Shown here: positions 4,652 to 15,144 of the stretch, in pieces | Layout: every line of letters begins with the position of its first letter | How positions within the stretch are numbered: position 1 is the first letter of the stretch | Source: Gloeopeniophorella convolvens | Taxonomy: Eukaryota; Basidiomycota; Agaricomycetes; Russulales | Length of the DNA: 15,144 nucleotides | Direction of reading: 5' to 3' | Assembly (NCBI GenBank): GCA_022496205.1 | Contig: WTXD01000243.1 | Span: 1-15,144 of the forward strand | Translations under genes and position numbers: made by a program | Notes under the pieces: generated by a model | What the model was told of the DNA's origin: nothing | The model's database searches: none | What the model saw: the letters and a program-made list of their open reading frames with translations, nothing else

Positions 4652-4660
4652 ATAATTTCC
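4652..4660. repeat. Left 9-bp target-site duplication (ATAATTTCC)
   Basis: The 9 bases directly outside the left TAGTCTCG terminus are identical to those directly outside the right terminus at 10817-10825. The match runs on for four bases (TAGT) because the element happens to begin with the same letters as the right flank. The symmetrical reading is a 9-bp duplication with TAGTCTCG termini. Confidence 0.85.
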
Positions 4661-4770
4661 TAGTCTCGGATCCAGCCGTTGTAGCGCCCAGTCAGGCACG
4701 CCTGCACAAGGTCGCTACAACGTCTGGGGCATTTCGTCCAGGCACGGGGGCTCGGTGACAGGGTGTCACA
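4661..4770 (+). repeat. Left terminal inverted repeat of the DUF6589/RecQ transposon
   Basis: It begins TAGTCTCG (4661-4668), followed by a hairpin (4677-4722) and then the 50-bp block at 4721-4770, which is the reverse complement of 10604-10653 apart from five mismatches. The core CCAGGCACGGGGGCTC (4738-4753) is identical at both ends. At its inner edge lies GTGAC-N5-GTCAC (4755-4769). A TCACATGACT motif (4772-4781) follows and recurs at 10572-10581 on the other strand. Confidence 0.88.
4677..4722. repeat. Hairpin within the left transposon terminus
   Basis: The arms CGTTGTAGCG (4677-4686) and CGCTACAACG (4713-4722) are perfect reverse complements around a 26-bp loop. It lies at the same place in the terminus as the larger hairpin at the right end, whose arms have a different sequence. 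Confidence 0.8.
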
Positions 4771-4939
4771 TTCACATGACTTCACCTGACTTCCCATCAT
4801 CGCTTGTAATACATATTTTCTAATGTGGACACATCGTTGTCAGCAAATATGTGTCAGAGTTCGGACCAGATGAGCCGGACCAGTGCAAAATGCCGAAGTC
4901 AGGTTGAATGGTGGACGCTTGCAGGCAACGTGTGCAAAA
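4771..4939 (+). promoter_or_regulatory. Subterminal region and probable promoter of the DUF6589 gene
   Basis: This is the sequence between the inner edge of the left terminal repeat and the chosen ATG at 4940. It is AT-richer than the flanks around 4800-4830 and contains the related motifs TCACATGACT and TCACCTGACT (4772-4791), which could be transposase-binding repeats. No clear TATA box is seen. The role is inferred from position. Confidence 0.35.
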
Positions 4940-7650
4940 ATGCCCCGAGAAGTCCCTCAAATACACTTCTCAGAAGACATTTTCGACTATGACTCAGACG
5001 ATGATCCAGATTTTGTTCCTTATGAGGACCTGGATGCGTCGGATGAGGAGACGGACGACATGGACATTGATTCAGACTCGGAATCTATCAACCCACCAAT
5101 TCAGGAGGCCGCGAGGCGGGCTAGCAACCTTAGGAATCAAGGTAGAAGCTTGCTACCAAAAGTACGGGCAGTTTGCAAGCTTCTGATGGACCTGGACCTC
5201 AATATCGGCGACTTTCTCCATGCTTTGAGCTGGGGAGACCCGGAATGCATCGCGGATGATGTTGTTCGCTACCATAGGACCGCACTCTTCCAAAATGACT
5301 TGCTATTGGCCACGCTGCGTAATTGGAACAAGCCACCGCATGTCCAAGAGCACCGAGGGACCGAGATTATGAAGACTTTTGCAGCAGAGTGTATTGTCGA
5401 GGAAACACAGGACGAAATGAAAGTGATCGCCCAACACTTTCACGCGGACTCGGATCCCCTATCCCTACCTTCATTGACCTCCTTCAGCTTCTCTGATATC
5501 GCCGCAAAGCTTCAGAATGACGCACCTATCCTCTGGCGCATCTTGAAGAAGGCTGGGTGGAGTGCACGTCAGGCACGCTGAAACACGCACAAGACTCCGA
5601 AGAATGTGAGTTCTGTGGGTGAAATGTTTGTAGCCGGTGCTAAAATATTACAGGTTATAACTCACCTTCTTGGAATGCTCTCGTTCTGCTGTTCACATCA
5701 CCGCAGTCGTCTCGCGGCACTGTGGGCAATCCATCTCAAGTCTTGTGGCCTCTCATCACGTGCTTTCGACGCGCTCCATGCCGCGGGACTCACCATGAGC
5801 GTCAAGTGGACTTCCGAGGCCTTCAAGAAGATTTCAAGCCGCGAGCTAGAGGCTGCATGGGTGGCAATGCAGAATCAAGTTTGTTTTTGGTCCTATGACA
5901 ACGTCAACATCCCAAAACAGGTATTCTCAATGTGGGTTGACAAAGAGAATCATTTTTACAGCGTGAGCACGGGAACCGTCTGGGTGCTACCAGAATCCTT
6001 CACAGTTTTGCCGCAGATGGTCAGAGAGCATCAGCGGGTGCGTCGGGAGGGTGCAGATGAACATTTCAACCTCGGATCATTCCTTAGCGGCAAAGATGAC
6101 GGAGGGGCGGCGGACTCACGCATGAAGGCACAGGCCAAACACCGGATCTTGCGGTTTCTACTTGAAAGCCCTGCATTCGGGGCATACGAGGGGCGCAATG
6201 ACCCGATCCTAGCACCCCCACCACCTACAGATCAGCTTCCATGCAGAGTAGAGAATGCTATAAAGCAATTCATCCTCCATACCGCAGACATCGAGGAAGC
6301 AAGCTATGAAGGGAACGTGAAGGTAGTAGAAGAGTGGCTTCGACAGCTCAAGATGGATACCCTAGAGGAGAAGAAAGGATTGGCGGGGCGGCTCATTCCT
6401 ATTGTCGGAGATCAACTCACCATTGATCGCCTTCGCAAGTTGGCCGGCTTCCGGCACAAAGACTACAACACTTACGAGCGGATGGACTACATCATCCCTG
6501 TCCTCGGATGGTTTCATCTCCTCGTTATGTTCACCCACTCACTCTTAAAGCAGTATATTGGTACATCTGGCGGGATCGGCTTGCGGCGCGCGTTCGACCT
6601 GATGAATCGGAAGAACCTATCGAAAGCGCAAGTCAAAGGACCATTCTGGCATCATCTTGATGAAGCCCTGTGGCACGTTGCTGAAGCACTCATCCTTGCC
6701 AGCTGGCTGGAGGTCTCCGGGGCTGAGAAGCTTGAGGATCTTACCTCAAAATCACCGGGACAGCTGATCTTGCTTGCTGACCAGGTGCATGCCGAGTGCG
6801 CCTCCCGAACAGCCCTGCAGAAGATGAAACGTGGAAGAAAGGAGGAAATGGACGAATACCGCTATAACTCAGTTATGTTCCTGATGGATATTCTCGTCTA
6901 CTGTGATCTGCGCGAGGCGATCAAGATCGGGGACGTGGGCCGCATGGAGGATCTTCTCAAGCCGATCTTGCTTCGGTTTGCGGGTGGAGAAAACCCAAAG
7001 TACACGATTGAGGTTCTTGAGGTGGTACAAGGTCTAAAACGGGAGTGGACACCTGAGATCAGGTGCGTGCACAGTGCATCGTGGATGCACCACGAATCTC
7101 GCCGCCAAGCTGATCTTGCAACTGCTAGACATCTTGTTCGGAACCGTTGTTGGCTTGTCAACCATTCTGGAAAGCAAGGTGGGTTTGTGGCAACTGATCA
7201 AGCACAGGAGCATAACATTAGAGATATCAAGGTGCACTTGAAGCTCGAGGTCGAAATGTCATACGTGCGTGACATACGTTATCTAATCAGGTTACGTATC
7301 GCTCCATTGGGCCGGGTGCGACGCTAGAGCACTTATCGAGCATCTCCCCGGGAATTCCAGTGTTCTGCGCGGTTGCGAAACACATGGCATGGCAGCATCA
7401 GAACGTGATATCGTGAGGCAGTCGCCATACAACACCTGGCAAAGTCCAAGACGTCGAGCGCGAGATGAAAATAGCCCTGGAAGAAAAATGGTTTTGTCAG
7501 ATCAATGGTCGGAAGTTGCGATCCGCAGACGACCGCGTGAAAGATATCGTGACGAAGGGGATACAGAACCTCTCGCAAAAAGGCGTGTTCAAATGCTGGT
7601 GGTTGGCACGATCCTTCAAACGGTCGTTGGAGGAAAAATGGCTAAAGTAG
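4940..7650 (+). pseudogene. DUF6589-domain protein, probable transposase, with two in-frame TGA codons
   Basis: The DUF6589 family is abundant in mushroom genomes and has no assigned function known to me. Three exons join in one frame: 4940-5605, 5654-7231 and 7291-7650 (introns 48 and 59 bp, both GT-AG), 902 codons. The ATG at 4940 is the first in frame and gives MPREVPQIHFSEDIFDYDSD. An acidic stretch follows (about residues 15-55), then an N-terminal helical region ending DAPILWRILKKAGW. The family core runs from LLGMLSF through VGDQLTIDRLRKL (about 473-485), GWFHLLVMF and QEHNIRDIK (740-748). Exon 3 starts VTYRSIGPGATLEHLSSISP and ends with the usual tail (KDIVTKGIQNL, RSFKRSLEEKWLK). TGA at 5579-5581 and TGA at 7414-7416 each replace an expected Arg codon and are one C-to-T step from CGA. 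With both read as Arg the frame is complete. It converges on the helicase gene. Transposase function is inferred from its position in a TIR/TSD unit. Confidence 0.85.
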
Positions 7651-7666
7651 TATATTACGTCCAGAC

Positions 7667-10409
7667 TCATGGCGCGTTCGGGGGATACGACAAATATACG
7701 ACATGTGGCTGCGAAGAGGATGCTGAAAGAGGGGCGGGTTGATGGGAAACGTGCTGTGAGCTGTACTGGCTCGTCGAGGCCGGTCCAGTGGTGGTGGGAT
7801 TCGCCGGCGCGGTGGGGTTTGCAAAGATCGGCCGGGGCTTGATACGTCGCGGCGGAACGGGGGCACTCGAAAGGGGGGTCTGATAGATATTGTAAGTGAA
7901 TCAGCAGCGCGGAAGAGGTGGTAGTGCACGCACCATAGCTGCAAGTCGTTTTGCCTCCTTCCTCTGCGCAGTCTCCTCATCCTTCGCCGCCTTCGCAGCT
8001 GCTTTCGCCGCGCATTCCTCTGCCTTTGCGGCCTTCTTCCGCGCAGCTTTCTTGGCCTTTTGCGCTGCTGCGAGTTTACGCGCCGCTGCCGCCTCCCACT
8101 TCCTCTCGGTCTCCTCGAGTTTCTGCTTCCTTTTGACCTCGGCTTCCTGCTGGCGTCGTGCAAGCTTGGCCTGCTTCTTCTGTGCCTCCTCCTCCTTGAT
8201 TCAGGTCTTCTCTGCCTCCTGCTCGGCTTCAATCTTTCGGCGCTTGGCATCATTTTCTGCCCGCACGCGCGCGTCTGCCTCGTTCACGCGGTCTAGCAGC
8301 TCCTGGCCATGGTCCTCCAGCCACAACCAGTTGACTGCTGCAGCGTTTCTGGAGGATTTGACGTTGTCGATGGTCTTCCAGCGGCCATGTGAGACAAACA
8401 CGATGAGAATGCGGTCGGGAAGAAGTCCCTCGGCACCCCAGGGATAGTGTGAGTAAGATGTCTCCCAGGTAGAGTCACACCACTCGGTCAGTTCATCACA
8501 GACCTTCTTCCTAATCTCGCCGCGACGGATCCCAGACCCTTTTCCCAACGGACGCTTGCCAGCTTCGTTGAGTTCATCGCTCGGTGTAACGTTGTTATCA
8601 GACAGGTCCAATGGATCTAAATCCGGAGATGGAGATCGGGATGCAAAGAGCTGAGAAATGGTGGTGGCGGGGTACTGCGGAGGCGATACGGCATCCACCA
8701 TGGCGTGAGGGTCTTGAGTATCAAAAAGATCGCTGGTTGAGGGCGTGGGCAGGGGTGTGTGGGAAGGCAAAGTTAACCACGGCTGCATGCCGGAAGTCAC
8801 GTTGCCGCTGTTAGACGCTGGCTTGGCAGACCGCGAGTTCGAATCTAAGTCCTGTTGCGCGCAGTTATCACAACAACCGCCGGTAGGTGCTGGAAAACAG
8901 GTAAGACGTACGTTCGTTACTTTGAGACCCTACTTACCTTCGCGCGGAACAGGGTTTCGAAAATGTCTGTCAGCAACATCGCGCTGGCAACCCATAGTTT
9001 TGATCCACTCCTGCAAGTCATCCTCCACCTCCTTCACATGTTTAACGGCCTCCCCTCGTTTCCTCTTTGATTTCCCCTTTTCCTGGAAGACTGTGGGTTG
9101 AACCAGCAGGTATGCCTTGGCTTGGCTTCCCCTTTGGCATCCTGCACGCCCTGCGTGCTGTAACCAAACACCAAGTGAGTCCGGCACCATGAATTGCATG
9201 ATGAAATCAACGTTCGCAAGGTCACAGCCCTGATTTTGCCACAGAAAGGTCAGTAACAACTCGCAGTAAAGGGTTTTCGATCTCACCATTCCGGCAGCTT
9301 CGCTCGCGAAGATGATATCAATATCGCCACGATTAAACTTGTCAAGCACTCGCAGCTTGCTCTCCTCCCCGCGACGCGAGTTGTAACACTTGACGCGGTC
9401 ATGCAGGTGTGACGGAAGACGCATCACAAACCAACGGCACGCATGCATTGACAGGGAGATGTCGTCGAAGAACACGATGCCGCGCTCGAGTTTTCGATTG
9501 CACACAGGTAAGCTGCCCGGTATCAGGAATGACAACGCCTGCAGATCCGACTTCCCCGCCTGCATGCAATGGACGCTCCAGAAGATATTCGGCCGATCGT
9601 TCCCAAGATTAAGGTGGAAGGTAGAGTCCTCTTGCATATGAACACATTTCCGGATCGCGGTAAGATCTTTTGGTGTTAGCGTCGCTGATGTGACTAGAAA
9701 CGGCACTTTCGCTGGTACGAATGCCCGCAATGTTCCGATGGCAGTATATGCCTCTCGAAACTTGTCCCCCCAACGCGTGATGCAGTGAGCCTCATCTATA
9801 ATGAATGCGGCGATTTTTTGCGAGACTGATGGATCCTGAAGCGTTTTGCAGAATTCTGGGTGCCTTAAGCACATCTCAGGCGACGTTATCACGACCTGAT
9901 AGACCCCCTGTTCGAATTGCTGCCATGATTTTACGTGAGTCCTTGCGCACTGTCCCCAGAATACTAACACAAACCTTTCTCACAGTCTCATTATATGTTT
10001 GTCCATTCATGGCTTTCGCGCGCAGGCCCATCTGCAGAAATCGATGTTGCTTTGCGGTCATGTGCTGAAATCAGTGACTTGTACTCTGATGGTAATGTGA
10101 CCGCACCTGATCTAATTCGAGAGCATTGAGCGGAGACAGGATGATTATCATCATGTCTGGTTTGACTAAGAGTGGAAGCACGAAGGGTAGGGTTTTCCCT
10201 GCACCTGTAGCTGCAATCACCTCGCAGTCTAGACCGAGCAAGAGGCACTCAGCGACATCAAGCTGCCATTCGCGAGGAGAAATCTCTCCTTGCGACATTT
10301 TTTTGCACGCGTCAGACATGCACTTCCGTAGTTCAGCAGGCTTGTGGTCAGCCCCTGCTGCATCCCGAGCCTGTTGTAGCACCCTGTTGGTTGCGGGTGT
10401 GGCTGGCAT
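7667..10409 (-). pseudogene. RecQ-family DNA helicase with coiled-coil tail, interrupted by a nonsense codon
   Basis: RecQ helicases are 3'-5' DNA unwinding ATPases. Minus-strand exons 10409-10107, 10064-9975, 9919-9287, 9229-8938, 8889-7934 and 7879-7667 join in frame to 829 codons. Motifs in order: motif 0 WQLDVAECL (about residue 48), Walker A ATGAGKT (67-73), DEAH (173-176), TSATL (208-212), EAAGM joined across a 57-bp intron to GCDLANVDF, motif VI region QHAGRAGCQRG (366-376) and zinc-ligand motif CCDNC (445-449). A Ser/Pro-rich linker and a Lys/Glu/Ala/Arg coiled coil (about 640-760) follow. TGA at 8203-8201 (about residue 669) cuts the coiled coil and is one C-to-T step from CGA. Motif VI, usually QR.GR.GR, has H and C in place of two Arg. 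ATG 10409 is the first ATG in frame; an upstream exon is possible. The last intron and exon are less sure: without them the frame ends at 7901. Confidence 0.85.
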
Positions 10410-10603
10410 TGATGCATGCTCTGCCAGGAAGAACTGAACACTGCTTGAGGGACTAGAATGACGATTTTGCACCCAGCAACCATGACCGCGTCGGCAATGG
10501 TTGCAATTGTTTCAGGTTGAGTCAGACTTGGTCAGTCATAGCAGGTCCTAGCACGCGTCGAGGGCGCGTTGAGTCATGTGATTAAGTTACTAAGCGCACG
10601 CGC
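10410..10603 (-). promoter_or_regulatory. Subterminal region and probable promoter of the helicase gene
   Basis: This lies between the right 50-bp terminal block and the helicase start on the minus strand. It contains the inverted copy of TCACATGACT (10572-10581) also found inside the left end. An open frame on minus near 10530-10450 reads TIADAVMVAGCKIVILVPQ and could be an extra 5' exon, but I found no splice that joins it in frame. The promoter role is inferred from position. Confidence 0.35.
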
Positions 10604-10816
10604 TGTGACTGCTTGTCACCGAGCCCCCGTGCCTGGACCAAATGCCCTAGACGCTGTGGAGGAGGTTGTGCAAGGGGTGGAGGGGGGCGGCATCTTCGGC
10701 ATCAAAACTTTATTCCCGTAGCCAATGAGATTCGATTATTTTCCGGCTTCCCCCGCTGGTTCAGCTGCCCCCCTCCCCCCTTGCACACCTCCTCCACAGC
10801 GGCAGGAACGAGACTA
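10604..10816 (-). repeat. Right terminal inverted repeat of the DUF6589/RecQ transposon
   Basis: Read on minus from 10816 it begins TAGTCTCG, continues through a large hairpin (10653-10800) and ends with the 50-bp block at 10604-10653 matching 4721-4770 at 45 of 50 positions. The inner GTGAC-N5-GTCAC motif is kept (10605-10619) with a different 5-bp centre. It is longer than the left end (213 against 110 bp) because the hairpin arms and loop are larger. Confidence 0.88.
10653..10800. repeat. Long hairpin within the right transposon terminus
   Basis: The arms at 10653-10691 and 10764-10800 are inverted copies of each other, with GCTGTGGAGGAGG perfect at the base and a one-base indel plus a few mismatches further in. 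The loop is 72 bp. The arms are G-rich on one side and C-rich on the other. This is the counterpart of the 4677-4722 hairpin. Confidence 0.85.
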
Positions 10817-10825
10817 ATAATTTCC
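10817..10825. repeat. Right 9-bp target-site duplication (ATAATTTCC)
   Basis: It directly follows the right terminus CGAGACTA (10809-10816) and is identical to 4652-4660. Confidence 0.85.
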
Positions 10826-10836
10826 TAGTGTGTGAG

Positions 10837-10841
10837 TCTCA
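10837..10841. repeat. Left 5-bp target-site duplication of the solo LTR (TCTCA)
   Basis: TCTCA here is repeated at 11327-11331 immediately after the LTR. Five bases is the usual duplication length for Ty1/copia integration. Confidence 0.85.
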
Positions 10842-11326
10842 TGTTGAAGCGCAGCAGAGGGTGGAGTGACAACTGAAGGACACAGAGTGACGCTCAGTCA
10901 GAGAAGGTCAAAAGACTGATACATTAGTGCAATACCTGAAGGACACAGAGTGACGCTACAAGGTAAGGTAAGCATAAGGTAGAAGTGAAAGGAGTGTAAG
11001 TGTACTTGCCTCAGTCAGAGAAGGTCAAAAGACTGAGGCTACAGAGGCGAAGAAAGAGGTCCTTATATACAGTAAGGAGCGACAGATAGCATGTGATAAA
11101 CACTGCTTAGAAAGCCTAAGAGACCCACATGAAACGGAGTAAGAGTGGGTACCGGAGTACAAGGTGGGTCATAGAATGCCCTAGAATAGTCCAGAACATG
11201 GAAACGAATGTGGGGCTAAACACAGCCTTAAGTCTAGAACATTATGTACACTAGATAAGATAGTCCTTGATCATTAGGTCTATATCTAATCTAATCAGAG
11301 CCGCCAGGACACTGTCCGTCTCAACA
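10842..11326 (-). mobile_element. Solo LTR of a Ty1/copia-type retrotransposon (485 bp)
   Basis: On the plus strand it begins TGTTGAAG and ends TCAACA, giving the TGTTGA/TCAACA terminal inverted repeat, and it is flanked by TCTCA on both sides. Its reverse complement aligns along its length with the LTR at 12386-12911. Shared landmarks on minus are the CTCTGATTAGATTAGATA tract, TGTTCTAG, GACCCACC and TTTATCACATG motifs, a TATA box (about 11061-11072), the hairpin just downstream and the CTGCGCTTCAACA end. No internal region is present, as expected after LTR-LTR recombination. The two LTRs are clearly diverged, so they do not belong to one recent element. Confidence 0.88.
11008..11072 (-). promoter_or_regulatory. 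TATA box and downstream hairpin of the solo LTR
   Basis: Read on minus, CTGTATATAAGG (11072-11061) is a TATA element. About 25 bp downstream is the stem GCCTCAGTC / GACTGAGGC (11039-11008). The same arrangement is present in the plus-strand LTR at 12686-12746, which marks the start of the R region by position. Confidence 0.6.
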
Positions 11327-13807: not shown

Positions 13808-15144
13808 ATGCCAACTTCGTCAGGCAACCCCTCGCCCCCTCAGGGCAACACCCCAGTCCAGGGAACACTCCTCTTCCGCCAGCGCAAGGCGCAACTGGCA
13901 CCACATCCATTTCCCAAAATGTTGCCACCACTCACCAGACCAACTTCTCCTTCGTCATGCCCTCTTTCCTGCGCATTCCAGAGCTGGAAGAGACAAACTG
14001 GGCGGCATGGAACCAAAATTCCTATCTGCCCTTGGCATGAACGACTGCGCCATCCTCCTTGTTCACACCTCTCCCCCTCCCGGAACTGATGCCTTCGACT
14101 GGGAACTCATGACCGCCGGGTTACTGCATTCATGATGGGGTGCATCACCCCGGAAGTGTACTCGCAAGTCCCGGATGTCGAGTTTCCCTCGGTCAAGGAG
14201 AAATATGACCAGTTGCGCGTCCTCTACGGCGGCAACACAGTCATGAGAGGCTGGAACTTGTGGCGCGAGTTTAATGCGTGGCGCATTGACGACTCCCAAC
14301 CCCTCAGTCCGCAGATCAGGCATCTGAAGGAGTTGCGCAAGCAACTTGCGGAAGTTGGCCTTGGCAAGTCGGAACTCGAGGTTTGCCTCACCCTTGTCGA
14401 CGCTCTTGGTGGTACCAAGTACCAGGGGACTCAAGACGTCCTCTTGGCAACTCATGACCCCAAGACTTTCGTGCTCAAAGATATTGAGCCCCTGATCCAA
14501 AACGCTGAAGAGATCAGGGAAGGTCCTGCTGGTGGTGCACTCAATGCCACCAGGAAGCTTTCTTCCGGCAAGAGAGCGGAACCCTTTGACGGGGAATGCT
14601 TCTACTGTCACAAGAAAGGCCACAAAGCCGACACTTGCCGCAAGAAAAAGGAGGACCTGAAGAAGAAGCGTCGCGAGAAGAAGGAGGCAGACAAGGGACA
14701 GAGTTCTGGAACTTCCGGAACTGCTGGGAACTCGGGGGGAACTGGAGGGAACTCCAACAAAGCGACCAACGTACTTGCCGCTGTAGATACTTCTGCACAT
14801 ATCTCAGATGTGGAATCAGAAGTTGGAGTTTCCCTTTACTTGTTGGTTTCCTCCCGCTGGATGATGGACTCTGGTGCCACACACCATATTACGCCACACC
14901 ATTCTGACTTCAAAGATTATACCCTATCAGCAGGCAGCATTAGCCTAGGGGATAAGTCGTCGGTTCACCAAGTTGGCTATGGCACCGTTGTCTTGCGGAC
15001 TCCGGAAGAAAAGATCACGTTGTTGCATGTACCGCATGTTCCGGGTGTTTCAGGTCGCTTCCTGTCGACCAGAGCACTCACGCAACTCGGCGCAACTGTA
15101 TCTTTTGGAGACCGTGGCTTTCAAATCGCTGTTAAGCAGCGTTG
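13808..15144 (+). pseudogene. Copia gag-protease region, frameshifted at the N-terminus, partial at the right edge
   Basis: Gag coats the retrotransposon RNA and the protease processes the polyprotein. The likely start is ATG 13808 (MPTSSGNPSPPQGNTP). The gag reading then moves to a second frame (TNFSFVMPSFLRIPELEETN, TNWAAW, around 13951-14015) and a third (KFLSALGMNDCAILLV, around 14018-14110). From 14111 it is open in the first frame to the edge (VTAFMMGCITPEVYSQVPDV onward). Features seen: zinc knuckle CX2CX4HX4C at 14597-14638 (C-FY-C-HKKG-H-KADT-C), a Lys/Arg/Glu-rich and Gly/Ser/Asn-rich spacer, protease WMMDSGATHHIT with the catalytic Asp at 14867-14869, and a conserved flank (VPHVPGVSGRFLS). 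Three net one-base losses destroy the gag N-terminal part; the protease part is intact as far as it goes. The minus-strand open frame over this region is a shadow. Confidence 0.88.

Follow-up and report, generated by a model that had tools for sequence, protein, structure and literature searches.

A helicase-bearing DNA transposon with a DUF6589 gene in Gloeopeniophorella convolvens, probably of the AcademH type

AcademH is reportedly a lineage of the Academ superfamily of DNA transposons, said to have been described by Kojima in 2020 (Mob DNA 11:15). We analyzed a stretch of 15,144 bp from the wood-rotting mushroom Gloeopeniophorella convolvens (Russulales; contig WTXD01000243.1), hereafter the window, in which an element of 6,156 bp at positions 4661-10816 carries a gene for a DUF6589 protein and a gene for a RecQ-family helicase. 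According to a passage on AcademH, such elements encode a helicase and make duplications of 9 or 10 bp, with the length of the duplication linked to the helicase (PMC10045372), and another passage places them at low copy number in Basidiomycota, Ascomycota and Mucoromycota (PMC10799480). A RecQ helicase in Academ was mentioned, with citation, in 2013 (PMC3627910), and fungal Academ copies are described in an excerpt as having DEAD and recQ_fam domains and as frequently annotated as host genes (PMC6416283). Fungal KolobokH elements likewise have RecQ downstream of the transposase, and the source passage gives Kolobok 4-bp TTAA duplications and RR/YY ends (PMC9587614). The window element and its copies are a genuine helicase-bearing DNA transposon. 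We consider it likely that this transposon is of the AcademH cut-and-paste type, or a basidiomycete branch closest to AcademH; the match is one of published traits and not of sequence, and is made because the helicase and the 9-bp duplication both agree with the traits published for AcademH.

Boundaries, copies and insertion sites

The element starts with the octamer TAGTCTCG on the plus strand (4661-4668) and ends with the same octamer on the minus strand (10809-10816, CGAGACTA on the plus strand). It is flanked by two identical 9-mers, ATAATTTCC, at 4652-4660 and 10817-10825, which form the target-site duplication. An earlier note on this DNA had delimited 6,156 bp by octamer termini and a perfect 9-bp flanking duplication, and the coordinates and letters agree on re-reading. 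The 50-bp inverted block claimed in the same note is real but slightly longer, with a left arm of 54 nt at 4717-4770 (plus strand) that is 89% complementary to the right arm at 10604-10657 (minus strand), and it is subterminal rather than terminal. Also claimed were exactly two convergent genes; two gene-sized, convergent coding units are present, DUF6589 on the plus strand and the helicase on the minus strand, but neither is open from start to stop in the window copy.

The octamer TAGTCTCG is also the left end of other DUF6589 elements read from a clade of 50-60% identity. The 36.7-Mb assembly of this strain contains 35 occurrences of the terminal pattern TAGTCTCGN{0,2}TCCNGNNNNTG, compared to one of the pattern read backwards. 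These counts, together with three copies of about 98% identity that have other 9-bp duplications, indicate that the window termini exceed chance. Fifteen of the 35 sites have a DUF6589 match at most 8 kb away; the remaining 20 are what would be expected of non-autonomous or broken copies, and a few may be chance occurrences. Left ends that deviate slightly, those of the copies at C374, C235 and C168, are not caught by the pattern and were identified by direct reading.

All insertion and co-occurrence tests were conducted within this one genome (404 contigs). The 5' 449 bases of the element recovered three further copies, 97.9-98.1% identical over 6,024-6,170 bp, one of which is split by a nested insertion. 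Both ends were readable at nine insertion sites, and every one of these has a perfect 9-bp duplication, different at each site; the count leaves out C374, C342, C235, C57, C68, C88 and the deeper lineages, where this was not the case. Besides ATAATTTCC in the window, the duplications of the window subfamily are ACTGCCTCC (C163), ATATAGACG (C251) and GAGTGGGGC (C290a). Three elements of other sub-lineages are bounded by TGGAGGAGG (C290b), CCTGAATCT (C323) and GGGGCCTTC (C168), with both genes inside the 6.8-7.0-kb interval that the duplication encloses. The shared termini with 9-bp duplications predicted earlier were thus recovered at all nine sites, other sub-lineages included, and at independent sites the entire unit, both genes included, is a single piece bounded by TAGTCTCG ends within 9-bp duplications.

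Shorter elements have the same ends. An internal-deletion derivative of 193 bp occurs twice, at C372:541931-542123 and C237:6467-6659, with the same near flanks and the duplication ACCGATTAC, and was counted once; an element of 1,105 bp at C13 is flanked by GTTTCGCCC. We regard both as non-autonomous elements that are mobilised in trans. The copies at C374 and C235 are 99.95% identical over 4,038 bp and have different left flanks. At the right end of C374 another high-copy repeat starts at about 118428, and no octamer was found within the 801 bp read at the right end of C342.

Uninterrupted target sites were sought by matching joined flanks with a single target copy against the assembly. Such matches were found elsewhere for four of the seven other insertions tested (four of eight including the window): C290a in C79 (100% of 300), C323 in C49 (100% of 300), C163 in C146 (100% of 285) and C168 in C94 (99% of 300). 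In addition, C290b is nested in C290a (C290:135010-148197), the two belonging to different sub-lineages and each having its own 9-bp duplication, and the window copy shows the target site of C290b uninterrupted, with a single TGGAGGAGG. The empty site proposed as a check was therefore found for several insertions but not for that of the window, whose right flank from about 10839 is a high-copy repeat; none was found in the assembly for C251 and C13 either, and the C372 derivative lies within a dispersed repeat that has many uninterrupted copies. The simplest reading of the matches is that they represent the other haplotype of a dikaryon and that the insertions are still polymorphic, while paralogy may be an alternative source. 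An ancient host gene pair, segmentally duplicated and flanked by chance terminal repeats, would agree with the annotation of these proteins as host hypothetical proteins, but nine different perfect duplications, uninterrupted sites, a nested insertion and a deletion derivative reduce its probability to almost nothing.

The high-copy repeat directly to the right of the element spans 10839-11125; among 377 candidate places 40 were scored, and of the 42 matches on other contigs 39 are at least 95% identical, so the window element sits beside another mobile element. A copy of this repeat at C2:151333-151703 directly adjoins the DUF6589 match there (151617-151703) and looks as though it had inserted into the gene. 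Further to the right, at 14090-15142, a long open frame resembles by eye the start of a Ty1/copia gag-protease region, with a zinc knuckle and a protease motif.

DUF6589 and its helicase partner

The DUF6589 gene, which encodes a predicted DDE transposase, occupies 4940-7650 on the plus strand with exons 4940-5605, 5654-7231 and 7291-7650 and an ATG at 4940; the Pfam match to DUF6589 (E=2.9e-102) is in the second exon. Comparison of the DUF6589 profile with PDB sequences gave nothing useful (best E 2.2), and fold comparison was therefore used. Two AlphaFold models of DUF6589 proteins (pLDDT 84.8 and 90.4) have a predicted RNase H core with a helical insertion. In the structural comparisons of these models the best rows (1-11 and 1-22) are all DDE transposases or RAG1, with the best alignments to the P-element, Hermes and ISCth4 transposases and the conserved acids in the order D, D, E. 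The first acid, D82 of the frame 5654-7324, lies on strand b1 (5897-5899), and the second, D253 of GDQLT, just after strand b4 (6410-6412). H288 of GWFH follows b5 (6515-6517) and is invariant in alignments A1, A2 and A3. The proposed third catalytic acid, E519 of QEHN (7208-7210), is on a helix after the helical insertion; all four residues are on the plus strand, and the three acids are D304, D475 and E741 when numbered from the ATG of the window gene model. Among 19 DUF6589 proteins with identities down to 13%, only D82, N83, G252, D253, H288 and L310 are invariant; E519 is invariant in sets of 42 and 48 sequences, and its assignment as the third acid, which draws on the models, is uncertain. 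Because of the predicted fold and the conserved D, D, E, DUF6589 is very probably the transposase of the element, in line with the earlier proposal.

Other searches with DUF6589 did not extend this picture. Foldseek comparison of the model returned no match at E<=0.001 against the PDB or against viral structures, none of 37 pattern matches in viral contigs was confirmed, and two distant-homologue searches aimed at animals gave 13 and 75 proteins, which had fungal names or no name; animal DUF6589 proteins, which also exist, were not among the named ones. A literature search found no link between DUF6589 and a transposase; the primary AcademH paper may show the protein under another name.

The helicase gene lies on the minus strand at 7901-10409 (exons 10409-10107, 10064-9975, 9919-8938 and 8889-7901) and has Pfam DEAD and Helicase_C domains. 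By sequence its closest solved relatives are RecQ helicases: WRN is the best PDB match (E=1.5e-13), and the matches at E<=0.001 comprise 37 distinct PDB sequences, which carry the names WRN, BLM, RecQ1, RecQ4, RecQ5, RecQ or just ATP-dependent DNA helicase. The SF2 core with its DEAH box is common to the window helicase and to WRN, RecQ5, BLM and bacterial RecQ; in contrast to these enzymes, the window helicase ends in a long C-terminal tail rich in K, A and E. RQC and HRDC domains occur in many, though not all, RecQ helicases. In the four exon frames no Pfam match to either was found at E<=1, and there is a weak second-domain alignment to WRN beyond the core.

The two genes occur together across the assembly. 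The DUF6589 profile gave 34 matches in 21 loci and the helicase 31 matches in 23 loci. At 16 of the 21 DUF6589 loci there is a helicase downstream on the other strand at a distance of at most 5 kb, all 16 pairs being convergent, which supports the co-occurrence proposed in the earlier note; 15 of the 16 pairs are within 4 kb, compared to 0.026 expected under random placement. The pairs are not all independent, as several are near-identical copies, and by our grouping they represent about eight sub-lineages. In the nested elements of C290 each DUF6589 gene also has the helicase of the other element nearby, in a different orientation. Pairing is kept where DUF6589 is about 25% identical to that of the window (C2 and C342:144k), and across lineages at about 13-27% identity. 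Of the five unpaired DUF6589 loci, C68 and C88 extend beyond the ends of their contigs; C10 lies at the very start of its contig, although the sequence downstream of it is there; and for C105 and C4 no partner was detected. Among the helicases, seven loci lack a DUF6589 partner within 7 kb (C46:562857, C55:13431 and 23836, C342:106242, C344, C349 and C395); some may be true host RecQ genes and some remnants.

A very divergent DUF6589 lineage with the motifs GDGKT and ELWH is present at C334:658965-660572 and C356:144837-146444, also convergent with a distant helicase of 34% identity to that of the window. The two loci are 99.9% identical over all 3,642 bp compared and may be one insertion seen twice, or alleles.

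It is conceivable that RecQ is the essential enzyme with DUF6589 as an accessory, or that both are host genes captured as cargo while the transposase lies elsewhere. Any autonomous activity of the element is putative, and the 193-bp derivative suggests that ends suffice when enzymes are supplied in trans. However, DUF6589 is modelled as a DDE transposase with conserved acids, no third gene was seen between the ends of the window element, and a pairing kept across DUF6589 lineages of such low identity is unexpected of cargo, and we therefore regard this explanation as very improbable. With DUF6589 as the transposase of an AcademH-type element, the protein would bind the subterminal repeats at both ends and cut next to the octamer, and the ends would be joined to target strands staggered by 9 bp. 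The convergent RecQ could act as an accessory helicase that opens or clears folded ends, or aids repair after strand transfer, although this part of the mechanism is more weakly grounded.

The introns of both gene models are GT-AG in all four copies of the window subfamily. In the window copy the DUF6589 gene has two in-frame TGA codons (codons 214 and 790, counting from the ATG) and the helicase gene has one at codon 688, where the C290 copy also stops. Lesions particular to each are present in the other three copies as well, and in every one of the four at least one gene is interrupted. Decay is most advanced in the window copy; C163 and C251, by comparison, are identical at all but 26 of 6,163 positions. 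Of the private C-to-T changes of the window copy on either strand, 69 of 79 are at CpG, affecting 7.9% of CpG sites versus 0.1-0.7% of other C. This CpG-biased decay looks like the result of cytosine methylation of the transposon, and the window copy probably makes neither full protein.

Foldbacks at the element ends

Most of the ends tested have a foldback of their own, conserved in position but not in sequence. In the window element the left subterminal foldback spans 4672-4727 (plus strand), with 15-bp arms at 4672-4686 and 4713-4727, and the right one spans 10650-10803 (minus strand), with 17-bp arms at 10787-10803 and 10650-10666 beside G-rich runs. Foldbacks were measured as the longest inverted repeat with at most one mismatch in the first 80 bp of the left end or 170 bp of the right end. 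On the left they are 15 bp in the window and C163, 21 bp in C68, C323, C88 and C290b, 14 bp in C57, 12 bp in C13 and 9 bp in C374, C168 and C342; on the right, 17 bp in the window and C163, 34 bp in C323 and C290b and 21 bp in C168. They start at position 12-14, save in the 9-bp cases. As controls, 60 shuffles and 60 random windows were used, and at six of seven ends tested the foldback was longer than the best of them; the exception was the left end of C374. The right-end arms of three lineages that were read differ in sequence but keep their self-complementarity.

RecQ enzymes unwind hairpins and G-quadruplexes. Taken with the foldbacks and the G-rich runs of the window, this leads to a tentative and rather doubtful suggestion that RecQ and the end foldbacks are one device, in which the ends must form a hairpin or be cleared of it, and unwinding by the helicase would allow the transposase to pair, cut or copy the ends. 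Such a helicase-assisted and possibly replicative route would be unlike simple cut-and-paste.

Annotation and comparison with known transposons

Three protein searches, one giving the best 120 of 167 matches, show that DUF6589 members recur in many agaricomycete species. Among the matches listed, the names are "hypothetical", "uncharacterized", "unnamed" and "DUF6589 domain-containing", with one "transcriptional regulator". It is probable that many genes catalogued as normal host genes of mushrooms belong to transposons. For RecQ the misfiling suggested in the earlier note is not new, having been described in the excerpt on fungal Academ copies (PMC6416283). If our reading is correct, DUF6589, a Pfam family of unknown function, is a DDE transposase and the neighbouring RecQ genes are transposon genes, which would change mushroom genome annotation and correct counts of host RecQ helicases. 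The DUF6589 profile, TAGTCTCG and the 9-bp duplication would then be a handle for finding such elements, and insertions that seem polymorphic in one strain would allow the need for the helicase to be tested.

The predicted DUF6589 fold shares the RNase H core and helical insertion of the P element, hAT (Hermes), ISCth4 and RAG1 proteins, but sequence identity over the aligned rows is only 7-11%, and we know of no helicase partner in the elements of these groups. P and hAT elements make target-site duplications of 8 bp, and membership in either was rejected on the 9-bp duplications at nine of nine sites. A Mutator-like (MULE) identity was rejected as well, as DUF6589 was the sole Pfam family matched at E<=1 in the exon-2 frame, with no match to the MULE transposase profile PF10551; the fold nevertheless resembles that of ISCth4.

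Given that the DUF6589 fold is comparably close to the P element, Hermes and ISCth4, the element could be a two-gene DDE transposon of a separate superfamily that gained RecQ independently of Academ and converged on the helicase and the 9-bp duplication. RecQ is also found in fungal KolobokH as described in part (PMC9587614), and the likeness to Academ rests on traits, not on transposase homology. We consider this origin unlikely, as the two AcademH traits given in the cited passages, the helicase and the 9-10-bp duplication, both match, and the excerpt on fungal Academ proteins describes recQ_fam domains (PMC6416283). KolobokH itself, a fungal Kolobok with RecQ downstream of its transposase, fits the helicase and the host as far as its source passage goes (PMC9587614); however, TTAA duplications of 4 bp and RR/YY ends are at odds with nine duplications that are all 9 bp, none of them TTAA, and with TAGTCTCG ends, and we give this assignment hardly any credence.

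The comparison with AcademH is closer. The helicase gene is common to both, the duplication of 9 or 10 bp given for AcademH agrees with the 9 bp at nine of nine sites in the window element and its kin, and Basidiomycota are among the hosts in the passages cited above. The DDD/E transposase of AcademH, with its RNase H fold, is matched by DUF6589 in its predicted models and its conserved D, D, E. Since those papers, in the parts cited, describe helicase-bearing AcademH, RecQ in Academ and fungal Academ copies misannotated as host genes, elements of this kind were known before, and half of what the earlier note inferred is already in print. The contribution here is a set of new family members and a useful name for a DUF; the type of system is not itself new.

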